NCBI GenBank assembly: GCA_018824085.1
Contig: JAHJHI010000050.1
Coordinates: 1 to 64,000, forward strand
Direction: 5' to 3'
Length of the DNA: 64,000 nt
Source: Gammaproteobacteria bacterium
GTDB taxonomy: Bacteria > Pseudomonadota > Gammaproteobacteria > Burkholderiales > Rhodocyclaceae
The notes beneath the pieces are model-generated. The model was not told the DNA's origin. It ran no database searches and saw only the letters and a list, made by a program, of their open reading frames with translations. Position numbers and translations under genes: made by a program. Below are positions 126 through 59,479 of the stretch, piece after piece (positions within the stretch are counted from its first letter, which is position 1; every line of letters starts with the position of its first letter).

Positions 126-2399
126 CTAGCGCCGGTACGGCAGCCACAGCCCGATCGAGGCACCGCCCTGCGGGCGGTTCGACGCCCGTATCCAGCCGTG
201 ATGAAGCTTGATGACCTCACGGCATACGGCGAGCCCCAGACCGGTGCCGCCGGCATGCCCGCGCAGCCGCTCGGCCTGCGTGAACTGGTCGAATATCTTT
301 TCCAGGTCCGCCTCCGGAATGCCGGGCCCGTCGTCGCTCACCTGCAGCAGCACGCCATCGACGCCGTCGTGCCGCTGCGCCGACAGCGCGATGACCACCT
401 CACCCGACTGCGGCGACAGGCGGATGCCGTTGTCCAGCAGCTTGCGCAGCACCTCGGCCAGCCGGTTGCCATCGGCATTGATGACCGGCTCGGCCACTTC
501 GCCGCTCACGCTCATGCGCACGTCGCGCTCGAGCGCCATCGGCGCCATGTCGGCCAGCGCCTCGCGCGCAAGCGTGTCGATATTGCACGGCGCAATGTTC
601 AGATGCACGGCAGCGCCTTCAAGCCGCGAAAGATCGAGCAGGTCGTCCACCAGCGCAAGCAGCCGGTCACCGTTCTGGCGGATCACCTGGAAGCGGTGGC
701 GCGTCGTGTCGCTCAGCGGCGGGCGGTCGCGCAGCGCGAGCCGTGCGAAGCCGAGGATGGCGTGGATGGGCGTACGCAATTCGTGCGACATGCTGGCAAG
801 GAAGCGGCTCTTCGCGCGGTTGGCCTGCTCCGCCTGACGGCGCGCGGATATGCTGTCGGACAGCTGCTCCTCGACCAGTCCGGTCATGCGCGCGCGGTGC
901 CGCGTCAATTCGGTTTCGGCATGCACGCGCGCGTGCTCGCGACGCATTGCCTCAAGCATCAGGCCCAGCGTGCTGACGGCGGTCCGTACGGCCTCCATGC
1001 GGTCATCATCGATGCGTCCTTCGCCGCTGGCGAGCCCGACCAGCCCGACCAGTCGGCGCCGGTTCATCACGGCGATACAGACCAGGCCACGGCCGTGCGT
1101 GCCGTTCGCATCTGCGGCGACCGGCGCACCTGATTCGCAATCGCTGCCGTCCGCCCCGAGCGCGGTGTCTATCAGGTCGGCGCGCTCGTTCAGCCAGTCG
1201 ATGTCGCGACGGGCCAGCACATTGACGTGCGGCCGGGCGCGCGCGTCGCTGACGACGTCTGCGATGAAGCCGTCCGCGCATCCCGACAGCGCCTCGATCA
1301 CCTGCAGCATGGCCGCGAACAGCGTGTCGGCCGGCTCACCGGCGACGAAGCGCGCCTGCAGCTCGCCCAGCGCCGCGATCTGCAGCCGGCTGCGCTCCAG
1401 TGCAGCTTCCACCCGCTTGCGTTCGCTGATGTCGCGCGCGAAACCGACGATGCCGAGCAGCTCGCTGTCGTCGTCGAAGACGGGCGCCTTCCACACGTCG
1501 AACACCTTGCGGTGCGCCCCCGCGTCGATCACCGATTCACCACCCCGCGGCTTGCGGCTGTCGAGTACCGCCAGGTCGTCGGCGCGGTAGGCGTCCGACC
1601 GGGCGCCCGGCCACATGTCGTGGTCGAGCAGCCCTTGGACCTCCTCGGGTGATGCGCGTCCGCCCGCGCGGGCGAGTGGTTTGTTGGCCGCCAGATAGCG
1701 CAGGTTGCGGTCCTTGACCCACACCATGAACGGGAAGTTGTCGAGCAGCGCGCGCTGGTAGCGCATCGCCTGCCGCAGTTCCCCTTCCAGGCGGCGGACG
1801 CCGGTCACGTCCTGCACGACACCGGACATGCACCCGCCCGGCGCGCTGTCCGGCACACCGGATGCCGCGTCGGACGGCACGCCGCACCGTCCTTCGAGCA
1901 GCACATGGCGCACGCCGTCGTCACCGGGAATGGCCACTTCCACCCGGAAGCCGGTGCCGGCCATCGCGGCGCGCCAGGCGCGCTCCAGCTGGCCGCGATC
2001 ATCCGGCGCCACCTGCTTGAGCAGTTGCTCGAGCGTGCCGGGCAGTGGCGCGCCGATGCCGAATACCGCGCGCGCCTGCGGCGCCCATTCAAAGCCGCTG
2101 TTCCGATACGTCCAGTTGGCGATGCGGCCCAGCGCCTGTGCCCGGGCGAGTTCGTCGCGCGTCTGATCAAGGTCGCGGCGCGTCGCGTCCAGTCGCACAC
2201 CCACGACGCACAGCAGCGCGCACACCAGCAGCCCGGGCGCGAGCACGGCCGCCAGACCGGAGTCGGCAAGATGGCTAGGCAGGTGCACGCCGGTCGGCCC
2301 GGACAGGTCGGCCAGCAGCATGCCGGCGGCGAGCGCCAGCAGCAGATAGGCCAACCAGTTCCGGGCGAGGTGCCGGACCAGCAAATGCGGAAATGTCAT
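126..2399 (-). CDS. PAS/GAF membrane sensor histidine kinase
   Basis: This is a sensor kinase of 757 residues when started at the ATG at 2399, where the peptide opens MTFPHLLVRHLARNW. Two hydrophobic segments lie near residues 15-35 and 50-68. They are followed by two PAS-like domains (about 60-200 and 210-330), a GAF-like region (about 345-485), a HisKA domain with the phosphoacceptor His near 539 in FLASMSHELRTP, and a C-terminal HATPase_c with the glycine-rich boxes DDGPGIPEADL and GGTGLGLAVC. No receiver domain is fused and no response regulator lies beside it, so its partner is unknown. An upstream ATG at 2471 would add 24 residues of arginine-rich sequence that looks non-coding. The input signal is not evident. 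Confidence 0.85.
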   Translation of the reverse strand: MTFPHLLVRHLARNWLAYLLLALAAGMLLADLSGPTGVHLPSHLADSGLAAVLAPGLLVCALLCVVGVRLDATRRDLDQTRDELARAQALGRIANWTYRNSGFEWAPQARAVFGIGAPLPGTLEQLLKQVAPDDRGQLERAWRAAMAGTGFRVEVAIPGDDGVRHVLLEGRCGVPSDAASGVPDSAPGGCMSGVVQDVTGVRRLEGELRQAMRYQRALLDNFPFMVWVKDRNLRYLAANKPLARAGGRASPEEVQGLLDHDMWPGARSDAYRADDLAVLDSRKPRGGESVIDAGAHRKVFDVWKAPVFDDDSELLGIVGFARDISERKRVEAALERSRLQIAALGELQARFVAGEPADTLFAAMLQVIEALSGCADGFIADVVSDARARPHVNVLARRDIDWLNERADLIDTALGADGSDCESGAPVAADANGTHGRGLVCIAVMNRRRLVGLVGLASGEGRIDDDRMEAVRTAVSTLGLMLEAMRREHARVHAETELTRHRARMTGLVEEQLSDSISARRQAEQANRAKSRFLASMSHELRTPIHAILGFARLALRDRPPLSDTTRHRFQVIRQNGDRLLALVDDLLDLSRLEGAAVHLNIAPCNIDTLAREALADMAPMALERDVRMSVSGEVAEPVINADGNRLAEVLRKLLDNGIRLSPQSGEVVIALSAQRHDGVDGVLLQVSDDGPGIPEADLEKIFDQFTQAERLRGHAGGTGLGLAVCREVIKLHHGWIRASNRPQGGASIGLWLPYRR

Positions 2400-2520
2400 C
2401 CGGATCGGGCCGGCCCTGCGAGGGCGGCCATGCGAGTCGCAACCTCTGAAGTACGGCCGCAACGCGCGCATCTTGAGCGCGGCGGTGGTGTCTTTCCGGC
2501 GCGAAGGCCGCGCCGGGGGG

Positions 2521-2526
2521 TAGAAT
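2521..2526 (+). promoter_or_regulatory. Probable -10 element of the RNase P RNA gene
   Basis: TAGAAT lies 8 bases before the predicted 5' end of the RNase P RNA, the right distance for a sigma-70 -10 box. The -35 region around 2492-2503 is a poor match, so the promoter is inferred mainly from position. Confidence 0.5.
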
Positions 2527-2531
2527 CCGCC

Positions 2532-2936
2532 CCGGAAGTCCGCCGGGCAACCGCGGCGCGCAAGCGTGGAGGAAAGTCCGGGCCCCGCAGAGCAGGATGC
2601 CGGCTAACGGCCGGGCGCTATAAGTCACGCGCAAGCGTGGCCCAAGGCGACGGAAAGTGGAACAGAAAAGACACCGCCGATGGCCGCAAGGATCAGGCAA
2701 GGTTGAAATGGTGCGCCTTCGGGCGGGTGGCAACACCGGGTAAGAGCCCACCGCGTGCGCGGCAACGCGCACGGCATGCAAAACCCCATCCGGGGCAAGG
2801 CCAAATAGGGAAGCAATGACGCGGCTCGTGTCGCTTCCGGGTAGGCTGCTCGAGCGGCGTGGCAACACGCCGCCCAGATGAATGGTTGCCAGTGCGTTCG
2901 CGCACGACAGAACCCGGCTTACAGGCGGACTTCCAC
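2532..2936 (+). ncRNA. rnpB: RNase P RNA (bacterial class A)
   Basis: This is the catalytic RNA of ribonuclease P, which trims tRNA 5' leaders. The ends form the P1 helix: bases 2534-2544 are exactly complementary to 2924-2934. The 5' core motif GAGGAAAGTCCGGGC is present near 2569-2583, and the 3' universal ACAGAA followed by CCCGGCTTA is at 2907-2920; together these build the P4 pseudoknot. The total length of about 400 nt fits type A RNase P RNA. It lies directly upstream of the dcw cluster. No strong poly-T terminator follows, so the exact 3' end is uncertain by a few bases. Confidence 0.97.
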
Positions 2937-3183
2937 TCCTCGCCAGGCCATGAAACACCGGCAGCCCCCTCGCCGGCACGCTGAAAGTCGCACTTCCGGC
3001 GTTTTCCTCCCCGTTTCTCCCCACTTTCTCCCACTGCCGCATTCGTGGCGGCCGCGTCTTCTCAGCAAGCACTTTCAGTTCATTTTCTATCCCATTCAAA
3101 ACAAAGGAGTTTTATTTTCAGTACTGTTGCAATAAACAGCGCTAAGTCATTGTTGCGACAACAGATTTACGGCAATTTGTCTA
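2937..3183 (+). other. Non-coding, AT-richer spacer between rnpB and the mraZ promoter
   Basis: The 370 bases between rnpB and mraZ hold no convincing gene. Composition changes from GC-rich to clearly AT-richer from about 3060 on. A perfect dyad TGTTG-CGA-CAACA lies at 3151-3163, with a related CTGTTGC at about 3124. It could be an operator or a small RNA leader, but nothing identifies the binder. Confidence 0.5.
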
Positions 3184-3212
3184 TTGACCCTGCAAGCTTT
3201 GATGGCTAAAGT
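3184..3212 (+). promoter_or_regulatory. Sigma-70 promoter of the dcw cluster (Pmra-like)
   Basis: TTGACC at 3184-3189 and TAAAGT at 3207-3212 are separated by exactly 17 bases, a good sigma-70 promoter. It would start transcription near 3219, inside the operator repeats, and drive mraZ and the genes downstream. Confidence 0.75.
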
Positions 3213-3255
3213 GGAGCAATATTGGATTGATTGTGGAGCGATTGTGGGAAACCCG
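3212..3255 (+). promoter_or_regulatory. MraZ-type operator: four TGG(A/G) repeats with 11-bp period
   Basis: TGGA, TGGA, TGGA and TGGG begin at 3212, 3223, 3234 and 3245, each exactly 11 bases apart. MraZ of Escherichia coli is known to bind TGGG-type direct repeats just downstream of the mraZ promoter and repress it. The position here, overlapping the predicted start site, matches that role. The autorepression is inferred; the repeats are seen directly. Confidence 0.75.
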
Positions 3256-3306
3256 ACGCACGCCGCACGATCCTCCGGCTCCTGAACCGCTTTCACAGGC
3301 ACACGC

Positions 3307-3759
3307 ATGTTCTACGGAACAACCCGGCTCACCATGGATGACAAGCACAGGCTTGTTATCCCCGCTCGTCCGCGCAAGAAGCTGATGGACATGTGCGGCG
3401 GCGAGGTGGTGATGACCGCGCGAACCCGGGAACACGTGCTGCTCTATCCGCAGCCCGAATTCGAGGCGCTGCTGGCACGGCTGGACCGCATGCCGGATCT
3501 GGATCAGGCCAGCAACGACTTCAAGCTCAGCTTCACCGCCAACGCGCGCGACGAACAGATCGACCGCGCAGGGCGGCTGTTGCTGTGCAGCGATCTGCGC
3601 GAACGCGCCGGACTGACCCGCAGCGTGATGCTGGTCGGTCGCGGCAACCGTTTCGAACTGTGGGACGAAGAACGCTGGAACGCCGAGGCGGCCGCACGCG
3701 ATGCACGAGAAAGCGCGGCGGTCATGCCTTCCCAGGTCATCAGCGACTTCAGGCTCTGA
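3307..3759 (+). CDS. mraZ: MraZ, transcriptional regulator of the dcw cluster
   Basis: MraZ is a DNA-binding protein with two SpoVT/AbrB-like (MraZ) domains that assembles into rings and represses its own operon. The 150-residue product opens [19 protein letters not shown], with the family's D-x-K-x-R-hydrophobic-x-hydrophobic-P motif. The second copy is degenerate around [19 protein letters not shown]. It is the first gene of the cluster, 48-95 bases downstream of the periodic repeats it probably binds. Its stop is one base from the rsmH start. Length is normal for the family. Confidence 0.97.
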
Positions 3760-3760
3760 C

Positions 3761-4675
3761 ATGGAGCACATACCGGTACTGCTCGCCGAGACGCTGGACG
3801 CTCTGGCGATGCGCCCCGATGGCTGCTACGTCGACGGCACCTTCGGCCGCGGCGGCCACAGCCGGGCGCTGCTCGAACGGCTCGGTCCGCACGGCCGGCT
3901 GATCGCACTCGACCGCGATCCGAGCGCGATCGAGGCAGGCCGCGCCATCCATGACGAACGCTTCACGCTGATCCACGCGCGTTTTGCCGAACTGGCCGAC
4001 GTACTGGACGAACTGGGCGTGGACGCCATCGACGGCGCAATGCTCGACATCGGCGTGTCATCGCCGCAACTCGACGAAGCAGCAAGGGGCATGAGCTTCA
4101 GGCAGGACGCACCACTGGACATGCGCATGGACACCAGCAAGGGCGAAACGGTCGCGCAGTGGCTGGCGCGCGCAGACGAATCAGACATCAGGGAGGTCAT
4201 CAGGGACTATGGCGAAGAACGGTTTGCTTCAGCGATTGCAAAGGCGATTGTTGCTGCTCGGAGCGAGCGGCCTGTCGACACCACACACCAGCTTGCCCAG
4301 ATCGTGGCGGCCACTGTCCGCACGCGCGAGGCGGGCCAGCATCCGGCGACGCGCAGCTTTCAGGCTCTACGGATTTTCATCAATAAAGAGCTTGAAGAGC
4401 TGTCGCTAGTCCTGCCGCAGGCGCTGGCGGCGCTGACACCCGGCGGACGGCTCGCCGTGATCGCCTTCCACTCGCTGGAAGACCGCATCGTCAAGCGTTT
4501 CATGGCCGACCAGGCGACGCCGCCGCAACCACCGCGCGGACTGCCGCTGCGTGCCGACCAGTTGCCCCGCCCGACGATGAAACTGATCGGCCGCATCCGT
4601 GCCGGTGCGGAGGAAGTTGCCCGCAATCCGCGCGCCCGCAGCGCCACGCTGCGCGTCGCCGAGAAGGTGGCCTGA
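3761..4675 (+). CDS. rsmH: 16S rRNA m4C1402 methyltransferase RsmH
   Basis: RsmH (MraW) adds the N4 methyl group to C1402 of 16S rRNA in the ribosomal P site, using S-adenosylmethionine. The product has 304 residues when started at ATG 3761. The opening [14 protein letters not shown], the SAM-binding [14 protein letters not shown], the [14 protein letters not shown] stretch and the late [12 protein letters not shown] motif are all characteristic. The longer reading frame from 3701 overlaps mraZ and is less likely. A one-base gap to mraZ and ftsL starting two bases after its stop support one transcript. Confidence 0.97.
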
Positions 4676-4676
4676 C

Positions 4677-4952
4677 GTGCTGCGCACGCACTTCATCCTG
4701 ATCGCCGTGCTGCTCGCCAGCGCCATCGCGCTGGTGTCGGCCCAGCACCGCTCGCGCACGCTGCACACCCAGCTTGAACGCGAGCACGCCCACATGCGCG
4801 TGCTGGAAACCGAGCACGGGCAACTGCAGATCGAGCAGGGCACGCTGGCCGCGCACGCGCGCATCGCGGCGCTGGCCGAAACCCGGCTGCACATGAAGAC
4901 GCCTGCCCGCGACGGCATCATCGTCATCGAATCGGCGGTGCCCTCGCCATGA
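4677..4952 (+). CDS. ftsL: Cell division protein FtsL
   Basis: FtsL is a small bitopic membrane protein that joins FtsQ and FtsB in the divisome and helps activate FtsWI. The predicted product has 91 residues from a GTG at 4677, two bases after the rsmH stop. An N-terminal membrane segment (about residues 4-20) is followed by a short heptad-rich periplasmic coiled coil, as in the FtsL family. An upstream ATG at 4599 would sit deep inside rsmH and add a basic, non-family tail. The stop overlaps the ftsI start by four bases (ATGA). Sequence conservation in this family is low, so position in the cluster is a main part of the evidence. Confidence 0.9.
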   Translation: MLRTHFILIAVLLASAIALVSAQHRSRTLHTQLEREHAHMRVLETEHGQLQIEQGTLAAHARIAALAETRLHMKTPARDGIIVIESAVPSP

Positions 4953-6715
4953 AGCTCTCGCACAACCCCCTGCTTGCCGAACTGCTGCCGGCATGGCGCG
5001 CCCGCGCCATGCTCATCCTCATGATGGCGCTGTTCGGCGGACTGGTCGCACGCGCGTTCTGGCTGCAGGTGGTCAATGACGAGTTCTACCAGCGCAAGGG
5101 CGAAGAGCGGTTCTCGCGCGTGCTGCCGACGCCGGCCTCGCGTGGACGCGTGCTCGACCGCAACGAGCAGGTGCTGGCGATGAGCACGCAGGTGTCGGCC
5201 ATCGTCGCCGAGTCGCGCCCGACGCGTCTCGAAGCGAAGGTGAACGCGCGCGACATCGGCGCGGAGTCGCTGTCGCCGGTGCAGGTCCGGGCGCTCGCCG
5301 AACTGCTGGAGATGGATCACCGGGAGGTCGCGCGCAAGATCCCCGACCAGCGCGGACGCGGCTATCTGAAACGCCAGGTGCCGCCCGAGGTCGCGCAGCG
5401 CATCCTCGCGTTGAAGCTGCCTGGCATACGTGCCGAACCGGAGTACCGCCGCTACTACCCGCACGGCGAGGTGAGCGCACACGTGGTCGGCTTCACCGGC
5501 GCCGACGACAAGGGGCTGGAAGGCATCGAACTGGCGATGAACCGGCCGCTCACCGGCCAGACCGGTTCGCGCCGCGTCATCACGGACGCGCGCCGCAATG
5601 TGGTCGAGGACGTCGAGACGCTGCAGTTGCCGCGCGACGGCGGCGACGTGCGGCTGGCGATCGACACCCGCGTGCAGTTTCTCGTGCATAGCCGCCTGCA
5701 GGCGGCGGTGACCCGGCACCGCGCGCGCGCCGGCAGCGCCGTCGTCATCGACGTGCGTACCGGCGAGGTGCTCGCACTGGCCAACTGGCCCACCTACAAC
5801 CCGAACAACCGCAGCCAGCTCAGCGGACCGTCGCTGCGCAACCGGGCGTTCACCGACACCTTCGAACCCGGTTCGACCATCAAGCCCTTCGTTGCCGCGA
5901 TGGCGCTCGATGCCGGCCGCTTCACCTTCAATACACCGATCGACTGCTCCGGCAAGCTGACCTTCGGCCGCTATTCCATCGGTGACGCGCACAAGCACGA
6001 CACGCTGACCGTGGCCGAGGTGATCGAGAAGTCGTCCAATATCGGCATCGCCAAGATCGCCGCCGAATTCAAGCCGCAGGAAATGTGGACGGTCTATGAC
6101 AGCGTGGGCTTCGGCAATCCGCTCAAGCTCGGTTTTCCGGGCGAGGCCGCCGGGCGGCTGCGGGCACCGTCGACATGGAAACCGGTCGAACAGGCAACCA
6201 TGTCCTACGGCCACGGCATCTCGGTCACCTTGATGCAGCTCGCGCACGCCTATCTCGCATTCGCCCGCAACGGCGACCTGATTCCGCTGTCGTTGACCCG
6301 CGTCGACACGCCGCCGCTCAGTGGTCTGCAGGTGTTTTCGCCGCAGACCGCGCGCGAGGTGCGGCGCATGCTTGAAATGGCGGCCGGGCCGAACGGCACC
6401 GCCCCGCTGTCGCAGATTCCCGGTTACCGGGTCGCCGGCAAGACCGGCACGGCGCACAAGATCGAGGGCGGCAACTACGCCAACAAGTACGTCGCCTCCT
6501 TCGTCGGCTTCGCGCCGGTGTCCGAGCCGCGCTACATCGTCGCCGTCATGATCGACGAGCCGTCGAACGGCGTGCATTACGGCGGCCAGGTCGCCGCGCC
6601 GGTGTTCTCGGACATCATGGGCGCCACGCTGCGCGCCGCCGGCATCGCGCCCGACGCACCGGGTCCGGTGCTGCAGATGGCCCGCACGGCGGTCGGCGCG
6701 AAGGAGGACATGTGA
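4949..6715 (+). CDS. ftsI: Septal peptidoglycan transpeptidase FtsI (PBP3)
   Basis: FtsI is the division-specific class B penicillin-binding protein that cross-links septal peptidoglycan with FtsW. The 588-residue product has one N-terminal membrane anchor (about 20-40), a PBP dimerisation domain (about 60-210) and a transpeptidase domain (about 250-560). The three active-site motifs are present: STIK with the nucleophile Ser at about 309, SSN at 362-364 and KTGT at 498-501. The ATG overlaps the ftsL stop. Length is typical for the family. Confidence 0.98.
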   Translation: MKLSHNPLLAELLPAWRARAMLILMMALFGGLVARAFWLQVVNDEFYQRKGEERFSRVLPTPASRGRVLDRNEQVLAMSTQVSAIVAESRPTRLEAKVNARDIGAESLSPVQVRALAELLEMDHREVARKIPDQRGRGYLKRQVPPEVAQRILALKLPGIRAEPEYRRYYPHGEVSAHVVGFTGADDKGLEGIELAMNRPLTGQTGSRRVITDARRNVVEDVETLQLPRDGGDVRLAIDTRVQFLVHSRLQAAVTRHRARAGSAVVIDVRTGEVLALANWPTYNPNNRSQLSGPSLRNRAFTDTFEPGSTIKPFVAAMALDAGRFTFNTPIDCSGKLTFGRYSIGDAHKHDTLTVAEVIEKSSNIGIAKIAAEFKPQEMWTVYDSVGFGNPLKLGFPGEAAGRLRAPSTWKPVEQATMSYGHGISVTLMQLAHAYLAFARNGDLIPLSLTRVDTPPLSGLQVFSPQTAREVRRMLEMAAGPNGTAPLSQIPGYRVAGKTGTAHKIEGGNYANKYVASFVGFAPVSEPRYIVAVMIDEPSNGVHYGGQVAAPVFSDIMGATLRAAGIAPDAPGPVLQMARTAVGAKEDM

Positions 6716-56847: not shown

Positions 56848-57416
56848 ACCGCCTGCTGCGGCAATCGCTGCCCATACTCATCCTGATTGCCTTTGCCGGC
56901 CTGACGGTCTGGCTGGAGCGCGTGACGCGCGTCGACGACGTACCGTCCACCGGCAAGCTGCGCCACGATCCGGACGTGATCGTCGACAATTTCACGCTGC
57001 GCCGCTTCGATGAAACAGGCGTCGTGCAGCACACGCTGACGGCCACGCAGATGCGCCACTATCCGGACGACGACTCGACCGAGCTCGACGCGCCCACCCT
57101 GCTCTACCTCGGCAAACTGTCGCCGACGCACATCACGTCCGAGCGCGCCACGCTGACAAAGGATGGCAAAGAAGCCATCCTGCGCGACAATGTGCGGGTT
57201 TTGCGTGAAGCTGGCGCCGGAAACGCCGAAATGACGCTGACGACGACCGTTCTTTACGTGTACCCGGAAGATGAAATCGCGCAGACCGACCAGCCGGTCC
57301 GCATCACGCAGGGCAAATCGGTCGCGACCGGCGTCGGCCTGCACGCCGACCGGGTCAAACAGGAATACACGCTGCAGTCCCGCGTGAAAGCAACCATCAT
57401 CAGAGCCCGCCCATGA
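56844..57416 (+). CDS. lptC: LPS transport protein LptC
   Basis: LptC is the bitopic inner-membrane part of the LPS bridge that hands LPS from LptFGB to LptA. The 190-residue product has one N-terminal membrane segment (about residues 8-24) and a beta-jellyroll with typical VDNFTLRRFDETGVVQHTL and VLYVYPEDEIAQTDQPVRI stretches. Translation appears to start at TTG 56844, overlapping the kdsC stop. Confidence 0.93.
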   Translation: MNRLLRQSLPILILIAFAGLTVWLERVTRVDDVPSTGKLRHDPDVIVDNFTLRRFDETGVVQHTLTATQMRHYPDDDSTELDAPTLLYLGKLSPTHITSERATLTKDGKEAILRDNVRVLREAGAGNAEMTLTTTVLYVYPEDEIAQTDQPVRITQGKSVATGVGLHADRVKQEYTLQSRVKATIIRARP

Positions 57417-57970
57417 CATCGCGCCCGACCGCCACCGGTCTGATCACCCTCGCCCTGCTGCTGTCTGCCGGCCTCCCCTCCACCGTTCGCGCCGAACGCG
57501 CCGACCGCGAGAAACCGGTGAATCTGGAAGCCGACAAGGCGACCGTGGACGACCGCACGCGCACCCATACCTTCGAAGGCAACGTTGTGTTCACGCAGGG
57601 CACGCTGACGATACGCGCCAACCGCATCGTCGTGACCCAGGACGCCAGCGGCTACCAGACGGGTGTCGCCACCAGCGGAGAAGGCGGTCTCGCCCGCTTC
57701 CGCCAGAAGCGTGAAGGGCAGGATCTCTGGCTTGAGGGCGAGGCGGAACGCATCGAACACGACGCCAAGACCGAAATCACCCGCTTCTACACGCGTGCCT
57801 ACGTGAAGAGCGGCGGCGACGAGGTGCGCGGCCAGTACATCCAGTACGACTCGATCAGCGAGAACTACACGGTGACCAATTCGGCCGACGCGAAGGCGGT
57901 TTCATCCGGCGGCGACCAGTCGAAGCGGGTGCGCGCCATCATCCAGCCCAAGACGGCACCGAAGGAGTGA
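57413..57970 (+). CDS. lptA: Periplasmic LPS transport protein LptA
   Basis: LptA forms the periplasmic beta-jellyroll bridge for LPS. The 185-residue product has a signal peptide (cleavage after VRA, about residue 26). The OstA-like core follows: NLEADKATVDDRTRTHTFEGNVVFTQGTLTI and RFRQKREGQDLWLEGEAERIEHD. It overlaps lptC by four bases. The expected next gene, lptB, is not found downstream; pqqA follows instead. Confidence 0.95.
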   Translation: MTSRPTATGLITLALLLSAGLPSTVRAERADREKPVNLEADKATVDDRTRTHTFEGNVVFTQGTLTIRANRIVVTQDASGYQTGVATSGEGGLARFRQKREGQDLWLEGEAERIEHDAKTEITRFYTRAYVKSGGDEVRGQYIQYDSISENYTVTNSADAKAVSSGGDQSKRVRAIIQPKTAPKE

Positions 57971-58101
57971 AGGCCGCCGGTTCATGAAAATCCTGAGCCT
58001 TCTTTCGCGGGCCGCCTGAGGCCGGCGGCGAGCGACACGCGCACCATGTGATTCATGCATGGCACTTCGCTGTGCCCGACGAACCACCTGAGGAGATCAA
58101 C

Positions 58102-58176
58102 ATGAACTGGCAAACCCCGGCAGCTACCGACCTGCGTTTCGGCTTCGAAATCACGATGTACGTCGCCAACCGCTGA
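58102..58176 (+). CDS. pqqA: PQQ precursor peptide PqqA
   Basis: A 24-residue peptide opens MNWQTPAATDLRFGFE and ends TMYVANR. It matches PqqA, whose Glu and Tyr are cross-linked to make the cofactor pyrroloquinoline quinone: Glu16 and Tyr20 stand in the conserved E-x3-Y spacing. A GAGGAG site lies before the ATG and a strong terminator follows 19 bases after the stop. No pqqB, C, D or E gene is in the window, so this is an orphan copy, as known in some methylotrophs. Confidence 0.93.
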   Translation: MNWQTPAATDLRFGFEITMYVANR

Positions 58177-58194
58177 TCCGGCGCAGGCACACGA

Positions 58195-58225
58195 AAAGCG
58201 GCGGGTTACCCCCGCCGCTTTTTTT
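58195..58225 (+). terminator. Intrinsic terminator of pqqA
   Basis: AAAGCGGCGGG pairs with CCCGCCGCTTT across a five-base loop, and the T run continues to 58225. It makes pqqA the last gene of its transcript. Confidence 0.93.
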
Positions 58226-58324
58226 CGTCCACCGGCAGCACACGTCCGATGCCGTGGAACCGGACACGCCACCCGCCGATCACAGTCCATCCGAACGTGT
58301 TAGAAAGTAGCTTGTCATGATGCC

Positions 58325-58349
58325 CCGACATCAGCGACGGTGATGTCGG
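58325..58349 (+). repeat. Hairpin just before the HD-GYP ribosome binding site
   Basis: CCGACATCA (58325-58333) pairs fully with TGATGTCGG (58341-58349), a 9-bp stem with a 7-base loop, followed within ten bases by GGGGAGG. It may be an operator or may affect translation. Confidence 0.4.
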
Positions 58350-58369
58350 CACCACGGGGAGGCGACGAG

Positions 58370-59479
58370 ATGGACGAAGCACGGCCGGCAGATCGGGAAA
58401 AAGCCAGGCAGACCGTTCTGGTGGCGGACGACACTCCGGAAAACATCGAACTGCTCAGTGACGTGCTGCGCAACGACTATCGCGTCAAGGTCGCCACGAG
58501 CGGCGAGAAGGCCCTCGGCATCGTCGCTTCGGACAACCCGCCCGACCTGATCCTGCTGGACATCATGATGCCTGGCCTGACCGGTTATGAAGTGTGCCGC
58601 CGCATCAAGGCCGACCCGGACCGCAAGGCCATTCCCATCATCTTCGTGACGGCGATGTCGTCGGTCGCCGACGAACGGCTCGGCTTCGAACTGGGCGCGG
58701 TCGACTACATCACCAAGCCGATCAGCCCGCCGGTTGTTGCCGCGCGCGTGCGGACCCATCTGGCGCTGTACGACCAGCAGCGCGAACTTGAATTGCGGGT
58801 GCGCGAACGCACCGCCGAGCTGTTTGCGTCGCGCCAGCAAATCATCCGCCGACTCGGCCGGGCGGCCGAATTCAAGGACAACGAAACGGGAAACCACGTC
58901 ATCCGCATGAGCTATTACGCGCGCCTCATCGCACAGGCGAGCGGAATCGGGCCCGAGGCGACGGAACTGCTGTTCCGCACCGCGTCGATGCACGACATCG
59001 GCAAGATCGGCGTACCGGACGCGGTACTGCTCAAGCCCGGATCGCTGACCGCGGCCGAGTGGGCCATCATGCGGCAGCATCCGGTCATCGGCGGCGAAAT
59101 CATCGGCCACCATGACGACGCGCTGCTTGAGGCGGCCCGCATCATCGCGCTGACGCACCACGAGCACTTCGATGGCGGCGGCTATCCGAACGGCCTGGAG
59201 GGCGACCGGATTCCATTGTTCGGGCGCATCGTCGCCATCGCCGACGTGTTCGACGCGCTGATGACGAAGCGCCCCTACAAGCCCGCGCTTCCGATGGACG
59301 AAACGCTGACCATCATGCGCAAGGGCAGCGGCAGCCACTTCGACCCGGTGCTGCTCGAAGCCTTCAACGCGGTTCTGCCGGAAATCATGCGCATCCACGA
59401 AGCCTACGCGGACAACCACGGCCCGATGACGGACGTCGAGGTCGACGTCGCGCTGCCCGAAACGATGGCGCGCAACTGA
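58370..59479 (+). CDS. Response regulator with HD-GYP cyclic-di-GMP phosphodiesterase domain
   Basis: The 369-residue product has a receiver domain (about 13-130, phosphoacceptor Asp near 64 in LILLDIMMPG) linked by a coiled coil to an HD-GYP domain (about 155-350). The HD motif MHDIGKIGVPD, GGEIIGHH and THHEHFDGGGYPNGL are all intact, so it should hydrolyse cyclic di-GMP. ATG 58370 is supported by GGGGAGG upstream; the longer frame from 58340 runs into the hairpin. It is convergent with the hybrid kinase, four bases apart, which may be its partner. Confidence 0.92.
   Translation: MDEARPADREKARQTVLVADDTPENIELLSDVLRNDYRVKVATSGEKALGIVASDNPPDLILLDIMMPGLTGYEVCRRIKADPDRKAIPIIFVTAMSSVADERLGFELGAVDYITKPISPPVVAARVRTHLALYDQQRELELRVRERTAELFASRQQIIRRLGRAAEFKDNETGNHVIRMSYYARLIAQASGIGPEATELLFRTASMHDIGKIGVPDAVLLKPGSLTAAEWAIMRQHPVIGGEIIGHHDDALLEAARIIALTHHEHFDGGGYPNGLEGDRIPLFGRIVAIADVFDALMTKRPYKPALPMDETLTIMRKGSGSHFDPVLLEAFNAVLPEIMRIHEAYADNHGPMTDVEVDVALPETMARN

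Follow-up and report, generated by a model that had tools for sequence, protein, structure and literature searches.

The stretch of DNA analysed here (hereafter the window; 64,000 nt, from the genome of a methanol-using bacterium, Methyloversatilis) carries, directly behind lptA, an orphan copy of pqqA that encodes a peptide of only 24 amino acids, the precursor of the cofactor PQQ. The question that this locus raises is under which conditions so small a gene, placed at the end of the lpt operon, is expressed. Of the 11 loci related to the window lptA, 7 come from Methyloversatilis or from MAGs of it that are 83-88% alike, and we compared the locus within the genus and within wider ranks; family, order and class are used here in the sense of GTDB, where we take them to be Rhodocyclaceae, Burkholderiales and Gammaproteobacteria, respectively, and NCBI taxonomy places the genus in Sterolibacteriaceae, Nitrosomonadales.

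The identity of the gene is clear. The encoded peptide, MNWQTPAATDLRFGFEITMYVANR, passes both curated models of PqqA, namely, PF08042 (36.3 bits, cut-off 21.1) and TIGR02107 (37.7 bits, cut-off 20), and the Glu and Tyr of PqqA that are joined by PqqE are intact at the expected distance of four residues (E16 and Y20). The conservation of these two residues is described in PMC12997753. The hairpin at the 3' end of the gene folds with -23.6 kcal/mol (z -5.85, matched by 0 of 200 shuffles) and is followed by 7 T, so that the preliminary description of a PqqA gene with a ribosome binding site and a strong terminator is borne out. A consensus scanner run over positions 57000-59400 listed neither this terminator nor a promoter; because the sigma-70 consensus scan yielded no promoter, comparative alignment was used instead, and the features that it delineated are included in Table 1.

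Table 1. Genes and predicted signals around the orphan pqqA, in window coordinates
Feature	Position	Strand	Basis or remark
lptA, upstream neighbour	57413..57970	+	family matches
Predicted operator TCATGA-AAA-TCCTGA	57982..57996	+	genus comparison
GAGG element, -35 region	58018..58021	+	A and last G invariant in 25-site alignment
Predicted -10 hexamer CACCAT, 60 nt from operator start	58042..58047	+	A2 and T6 invariant in alignment
Leader hairpin CATGGC-ACTTC-GCTGTG, 6 pairs, two of them G-U	58058..58074	+	leader comparison
Ribosome binding site GAGGAG	58090..58095	+	ends 6 nt before ATG
pqqA, orphan copy, 24 aa	58102..58176	+	reading frame, PF08042, TIGR02107
Intrinsic terminator: 8-bp GC stem, 5-nt loop, 7 T	58198..58225	+	sequence and folding
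Response regulator with HD domain, downstream neighbour	58370..59479	+	family matches

The genes that precede pqqA are of the kdsD-kdsC-lptC-lptA type, and the gene had been said to occupy the place where lptB would be expected. In this genome, lptB is split from lptA and lies on another contig (C40, locus L071), in surroundings of recA/recX-like frames and an rpoN-like frame, between what we take, from the sequence, to be recX-like and rpoN-like frames; at another locus (L082), an lptB-like ATPase frame directly follows lptA, so the statement on the position is right. Among the 13 genomes of the genus, pqqA follows lptA on its 3' side at a distance of about 0.14 kb in five (G000, the window's own, to G003, and G012) and of about 2 kb in six (G004-G006 and G008-G010); G007, in which pqqA is on other contigs, and G011 have no pqqA near lptA. 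At two loci, L075 and L078, the 2 kb between lptA and pqqA are occupied by a frame of 511-513 aa on the opposite strand, which in L078 is malonyl-CoA synthase. The downstream neighbour of the window pqqA, which is probably HD-GYP-like, is outside the system proposed below.

The window copy is one of three pqqA genes that score over the cut-off in this genome. The second, on contig C24, directly precedes a pqqBCDE set, and the third, on C27, is again an orphan; the coding regions of the copies are near-identical. A fourth copy, on C56 (L251:3930-4130, minus strand), is decayed, with Glu16 replaced by Asp, the stop codon lost and the left half of the operator damaged. The genome-wide search that the preliminary description had proposed thus located pqqBCDE together with the second copy, and the only PqqE over the cut-off, that of C24, lies outside the window, in agreement with the reported lack of pqqBCDE there. 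The suggestion of a PQQ-dependent lifestyle also fits: 7 of the 17 rows of matches to PQQ-dependent alcohol dehydrogenases are over the cut-off. Three intact, dispersed pqqA genes would, in this arrangement, feed a single PqqBCDE machinery.

Multiple copies are the rule in the genus, where each of the 13 genomes carries 2-5 pqqA genes, 45 in total, 43 of which encode the main type of PqqA. The other two (L026 of G010 and L052 of G006) encode a second type (MQWIDPAY...VYVR) and come without the operator; possibly, this type was acquired separately. In the draws from the wider ranks, pqqA is present in 58 of 199 genomes of the family, in 71 of 349 of the order, with up to 8 copies in one family (f25), and in 51 of 369 of the class; most of the 52 pqqA-bearing family genomes that do not belong to the genus carry a single copy (44 genomes), with two copies in 7 and three in one.

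Comparison of the upstream regions within the genus reveals a common promoter unit at 42 of the 43 main-type copies, consisting of the operator, a -10 hexamer at a fixed spacing of 60 nt and, usually, the leader hairpin. The genus operator is the palindrome TCATGA-WWW-TCMTGA; its right half, TCMTGA in many copies, is often degenerate, in particular, in the class of copies linked to pqqBCDE. The order of elements, namely, TCATGA-WWW-TC, the variable right half, TT 22 nt further along, then GAGG and the -10 hexamer with its constant A and T, is kept at fixed spacing even though the distance from the operator to the ATG varies between 119 and 145 nt. The other two intact copies of the window's genome have degenerate right halves, TCCCTA on C24 and TCTTTA on C27, which counts against joint control of the three. 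In the window itself, the 26-nt operator block (57982-58007) is the top site, with 40.6 bits compared to 6.1 for the runner-up, a score level with the maximum among the 43 main-type copies. The operator, which the preliminary description had not noted, gives the window copy predicted control of its own instead of leaving it a simple member of the lpt operon.

The specificity of this unit was assessed with a profile. Of the 26 non-redundant genus sites, 25 could be aligned by MAFFT without gaps over 72 columns (L043 was omitted), and the 72-nt sequence-only profile derived from these 25 sites was run on the 13 genus genomes, with 150 of the thousands of initial candidates scored per genome. It gave 42 matches at E <= 5.4e-8, each located at a pqqA by coordinates, followed by the decayed pqqA (3.7e-5) and by a remainder that starts from 0.014. 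Since the 25 training sites are among the 42 matches, it is the lack of any others that is informative; among the strong matches in the genus, the promoter unit is restricted to pqqA. The pqqA genes that lack a strong match are the two of the second type and L043 (16 bits), a main-type copy whose poor operator speaks against a regulon that embraces all copies. A simpler pattern, TTCATGAANWTC, taken from the upstream regions of the three pqqA of the window's genome, occurs there at 10 sites, 3 of them at these pqqA genes, and its reversed control at none. An operator common to the PQQ dehydrogenases was considered as well and rejected for 8 of the 17 rows (L008-L015), where the best block scored 4.1, against 23-41 at pqqA.

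Could the window copy, nevertheless, be a silent relic, or be expressed only via read-through from the lpt operon? Its -10 hexamer is weak outside the two invariant positions (a 3/6 match to TATAAT), its Ala7 is unique, with Lys in the other 42 of the 43 main-type copies of the genus, and the fourth pqqA of this genome is already in decay. These facts are compatible with such a fate; against it stand the operator block that equals the best of the 43, the intact reading frame, E16, Y20, ribosome binding site and terminator, and the recurrence of pqqA directly behind lptA in 5 of the 13 genomes, so we consider it very unlikely. Another possibility is that the palindrome is an RNA hairpin that terminates the lpt operon and not an operator at all. 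At four lptA-linked loci (L022, L023, L035 and L045), the operator is part of an extended palindrome, GGGTCATGA-WWW-TCATGACCC, with T after it, so that lpt transcription could end there as well. We give this explanation hardly any credence because the same core is found before pqqA copies that are not behind lptA and before a pqqU-type gene in another genome, G028 (see below), and because, in the genus, the palindrome precedes the -10 hexamer at fixed spacing.

The leader hairpin was initially a candidate for the main feature of the locus and was rejected as such, given that folding of whole leaders gave a mean z of only -1.3 against mononucleotide shuffles and, for the window leader, 0.0, no better than the shuffles. 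It is kept as a secondary feature because a six-pair hairpin that starts 6 or 10 nt past the -10 hexamer is present in 16 of 23 non-redundant genus leaders, compared to a mean of 1.2 and a maximum of 5 for shuffles. Covariation was examined in two sets of 8 hand-picked stems with five-base loops, with four-base-loop stems, repeats and long-hairpin leaders omitted. Pairs with changes on both sides do occur, and the evidence is mixed: the covariation score was reached by 5 of 500 and 0 of 500 shuffles in the two sets, whereas 429 of 500 and 44 of 500 shuffles had as many pairs with both bases altered. Conceivably, the hairpin protects the short mRNA.

The operator extends well beyond the genus. 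Its exact core, TCATGAWWWTC, is found 103-157 nt upstream of pqqA in 26 of 30 other loci of the family; the remaining four lack it though their genomes carry the candidate regulator described below, which weighs against the proposed regulon. When one test was applied to all groups (a dyad matching at least 12 of 15 positions, in non-redundant upstream regions), the dyad was detected in 24 of 26 regions of the genus, 23 of 27 of the rest of the family and 40 of 48 of the rest of the order, in 0 of 5 regions of a type that we label Burkholderia-type and in 1 of 32 at class level; among random windows taken from these loci, 0 to 2.4% reach 12/15. The order sample comprised 30 loci and 20 further regions among the matches, with one locus, L155, lacking pqqA by the search pattern, and the class set comprised 29 loci (L192-L220). 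One class-level genome, G702, has 9 pqqA copies; the upstream regions of 7 were examined, and 5 of them contain AAAATCCTGA. Two of these 7 sites are perfect TCAGGA-AAA-TCCTGA dyads in which both half-sites are changed, as expected if the two half-sites change together.

These observations bear on the simplest alternative, namely, that the window gene is an ordinary dosage duplicate that was copied along with its promoter, so that the likeness of the upstream regions reflects common descent and no dedicated regulator is needed. The near-identity of the coding regions and the well-known multiplicity of pqqA are in line with such an origin. Yet the spacer between operator and -10 hexamer has diverged while operator, GAGG and -10 were kept, the operator is retained across families and recurs at pqqU in G028, both half-sites are changed in the two sites of G702, and the presence of the regulator tracks that of the operator; we therefore find plain duplication unlikely.

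A candidate for the regulator is suggested by the neighbourhood of some pqqA genes. At three loci (L188, L189 and L190), divergent pqqA genes enclose the genes of a kinase, of a 214-aa regulator and of a prolyl aminopeptidase-like hydrolase (pip). In L190, the Pfam architecture of the kinase is HAMP-PAS-HisKA_3 (with HATPase) and that of the regulator is receiver-GerE; the third gene of this locus gives a weak TonB-like match (20 bits, cut-off 22). The window's genome encodes a counterpart on C56 (16696-17325; 349 bits, the next in the genome scoring 205), preceded by pip and a kinase gene and adjoined by the decayed pqqA. The recurrence of pip near pqqA and the regulator (L251, L188-L190 and other loci) was noted in its own right, and a role in the processing of PqqA is conceivable.

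A profile built from 12 pqqA-linked regulators was run on 80 genomes, chosen partly by their operator status, with a threshold of 260 bits. A regulator of at least 260 bits was found in all 13 genomes of the genus, in 29 of the 30 examined pqqA-bearing genomes of the family (52 are known), in 10 of 10 operator-bearing genomes of the order versus 0 of 5 pqqA-bearing ones without the operator, in 1 of 10 pqqA-bearing class genomes (G702) and in 1 of 12 genomes in which no pqqA was detected (G028). The operator and the regulator thus co-occur. Three points count against the regulon: operator status was part of the choice of the genomes, the single exception in the family, G046 (82% complete), has a strong operator and no regulator was found in it, and the margin is narrow, with the lowest family regulators at 260 bits and the best paralogue at 254.5. 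In a phylogenetic tree, 47 of the 53 regulators (from the genus, the family, the order and G028; the other six, all from the family, were not included) were on one side of a branch with 100/99 support, and 22 chosen paralogues together with the G702 protein on the other; the best matches of three class-level genomes (G678, G687 and G790) fall among the paralogues.

Linkage of the regulator to pqqA is seen in some lineages and is frequent rather than usual. Of the 30 order loci, 11, which represent six families, have the regulator within 1.5 kb of pqqA, as do 0 of 30 family loci with flanks of this length; in 11 of the 12 other genus genomes, an intact pqqA is 3.7-3.8 kb away, and in G011 the nearest one is at about 16 kb. 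In three genomes of f25 (G229, G391 and G507), the regulator is present and the nearest listed pqqA is at least 29 kb away, which counts against the proposal and indicates that the linkage is not universal.

It might be argued that the operator is real and is bound by another regulator, for example, a counterpart of Pseudomonas AgmR, a LuxR-type protein that is reported to promote PQQ biosynthetic genes (PMC12997753); binding by the linked regulator is, after all, a prediction from sequence. Gene linkage and co-occurrence favour the linked NarL-type protein, however, and neither the L190 kinase and regulator nor those of the window's genome reach any NCBIfam equivalog cut-off. The pair of the window's genome matches the UvrY/GacA, UhpB and NarX groups, in each case below the cut-off (at best 196.8 bits for the regulator, against 280 for UvrY/SirA/GacA), and the L190 regulator scores 55.4 against ErdR, with a cut-off of 390. 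Thus, a different binder appears distinctly unlikely.

Taken with these observations, the window pqqA is probably an autonomous, monocistronic member of a dispersed PQQ-supply regulon run by a NarL-type two-component system. It would form a self-contained transcription unit that consists of operator, -10 hexamer, leader hairpin, ribosome binding site, 24 codons and terminator. Upon a signal presumably perceived by the kinase, the response regulator encoded on C56 would bind the operator, near -65 relative to the predicted start site, and activate the pqqA copies together, and a higher copy number would increase the supply of precursor, perhaps to the benefit of the cell.

The operator and regulator are also linked to pqqU. 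Genome G028, in which the regulator is present and pqqA was not detected, has a perfect operator (15/15) upstream of a TonB-dependent receptor of the pqqU type, whose best matches among solved structures are YncD (3.7e-168) and the PQQ transporter 9c4o (4.9e-167). Its score of 705.2 bits for the NCBIfam PqqU equivalog is the best of four families matched and is below the cut-off of 1200. Within positions 1412-6346 of this locus (L252), the operator, the receptor, a cytochrome-like frame (so labelled from its CxxCH motifs), a PQQ alcohol dehydrogenase and the two-component genes are found together, and G028 is possibly a PQQ scavenger. Another genome, G148, has a second operator-like site (12/15), located upstream of a gene for a relative of the G028 receptor (48% identity), and a receptor gene of this type follows pqqA on the same strand in 9 of 60 family and order loci. 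We lean, if only slightly, towards the broader view that, in much of the betaproteobacteria, a dedicated two-component system acts through one operator to turn on pqqA, in however many scattered copies a genome has, in producers of PQQ and the importer gene pqqU in bacteria that do not make it; the window gene would then be one of its outputs.

The gene itself is of a known kind. The statement that some methylotrophs carry multiple pqqA copies was already in print: 3-12 dispersed copies are reported in Methylophilaceae (PMC4109929), five in a strain of Hyphomicrobium (PMC9851590), orphan pqqA2 and pqqA3 in M. extorquens AM1 (PMC11317620), three copies in strain RH AL1 (PMC10848612) and multiple copies in Methylovorus MP688 (Ge 2015, as cited). 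As in the window's genome, orphan pqqA genes are, as a rule, accompanied by one pqqBCDE set in these reports, and differential expression of the copies is described. The initial reading of the window gene is therefore supported, and what is new, relative to those accounts, is the predicted regulon, with its common conserved operator, fixed promoter geometry and candidate regulator. In Pseudomonas, likewise, LuxR-type regulators and kinases (AgmR/PedR1/ErbR and PedS2-PedR2, also ExaD/ExaE) control PQQ functions (PMC12997753); the present candidate regulator differs in being encoded near pqqA, pip and pqqU. PqqU (YncD) is known as a TonB-dependent PQQ importer (PMC12124388; PDB 6v81 and 9c4o), and the main text of that paper mentions no two-component system, histidine kinase or response regulator, unlike the arrangement here, in which operator and regulator adjoin a pqqU-type gene. 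A literature search, with subscription journals mostly outside its scope, found no paper that describes the operator or the regulator.

With the shared operator and the candidate regulator, it becomes directly testable why methylotrophs carry so many copies of pqqA and what determines the level of PQQ. The shared operator suggests how a gene of 24 codons can work anywhere in the genome, and it offers a DNA signature by which pqqA genes missed in annotation can be located. Moreover, a single switch may link the synthesis of PQQ with its import.
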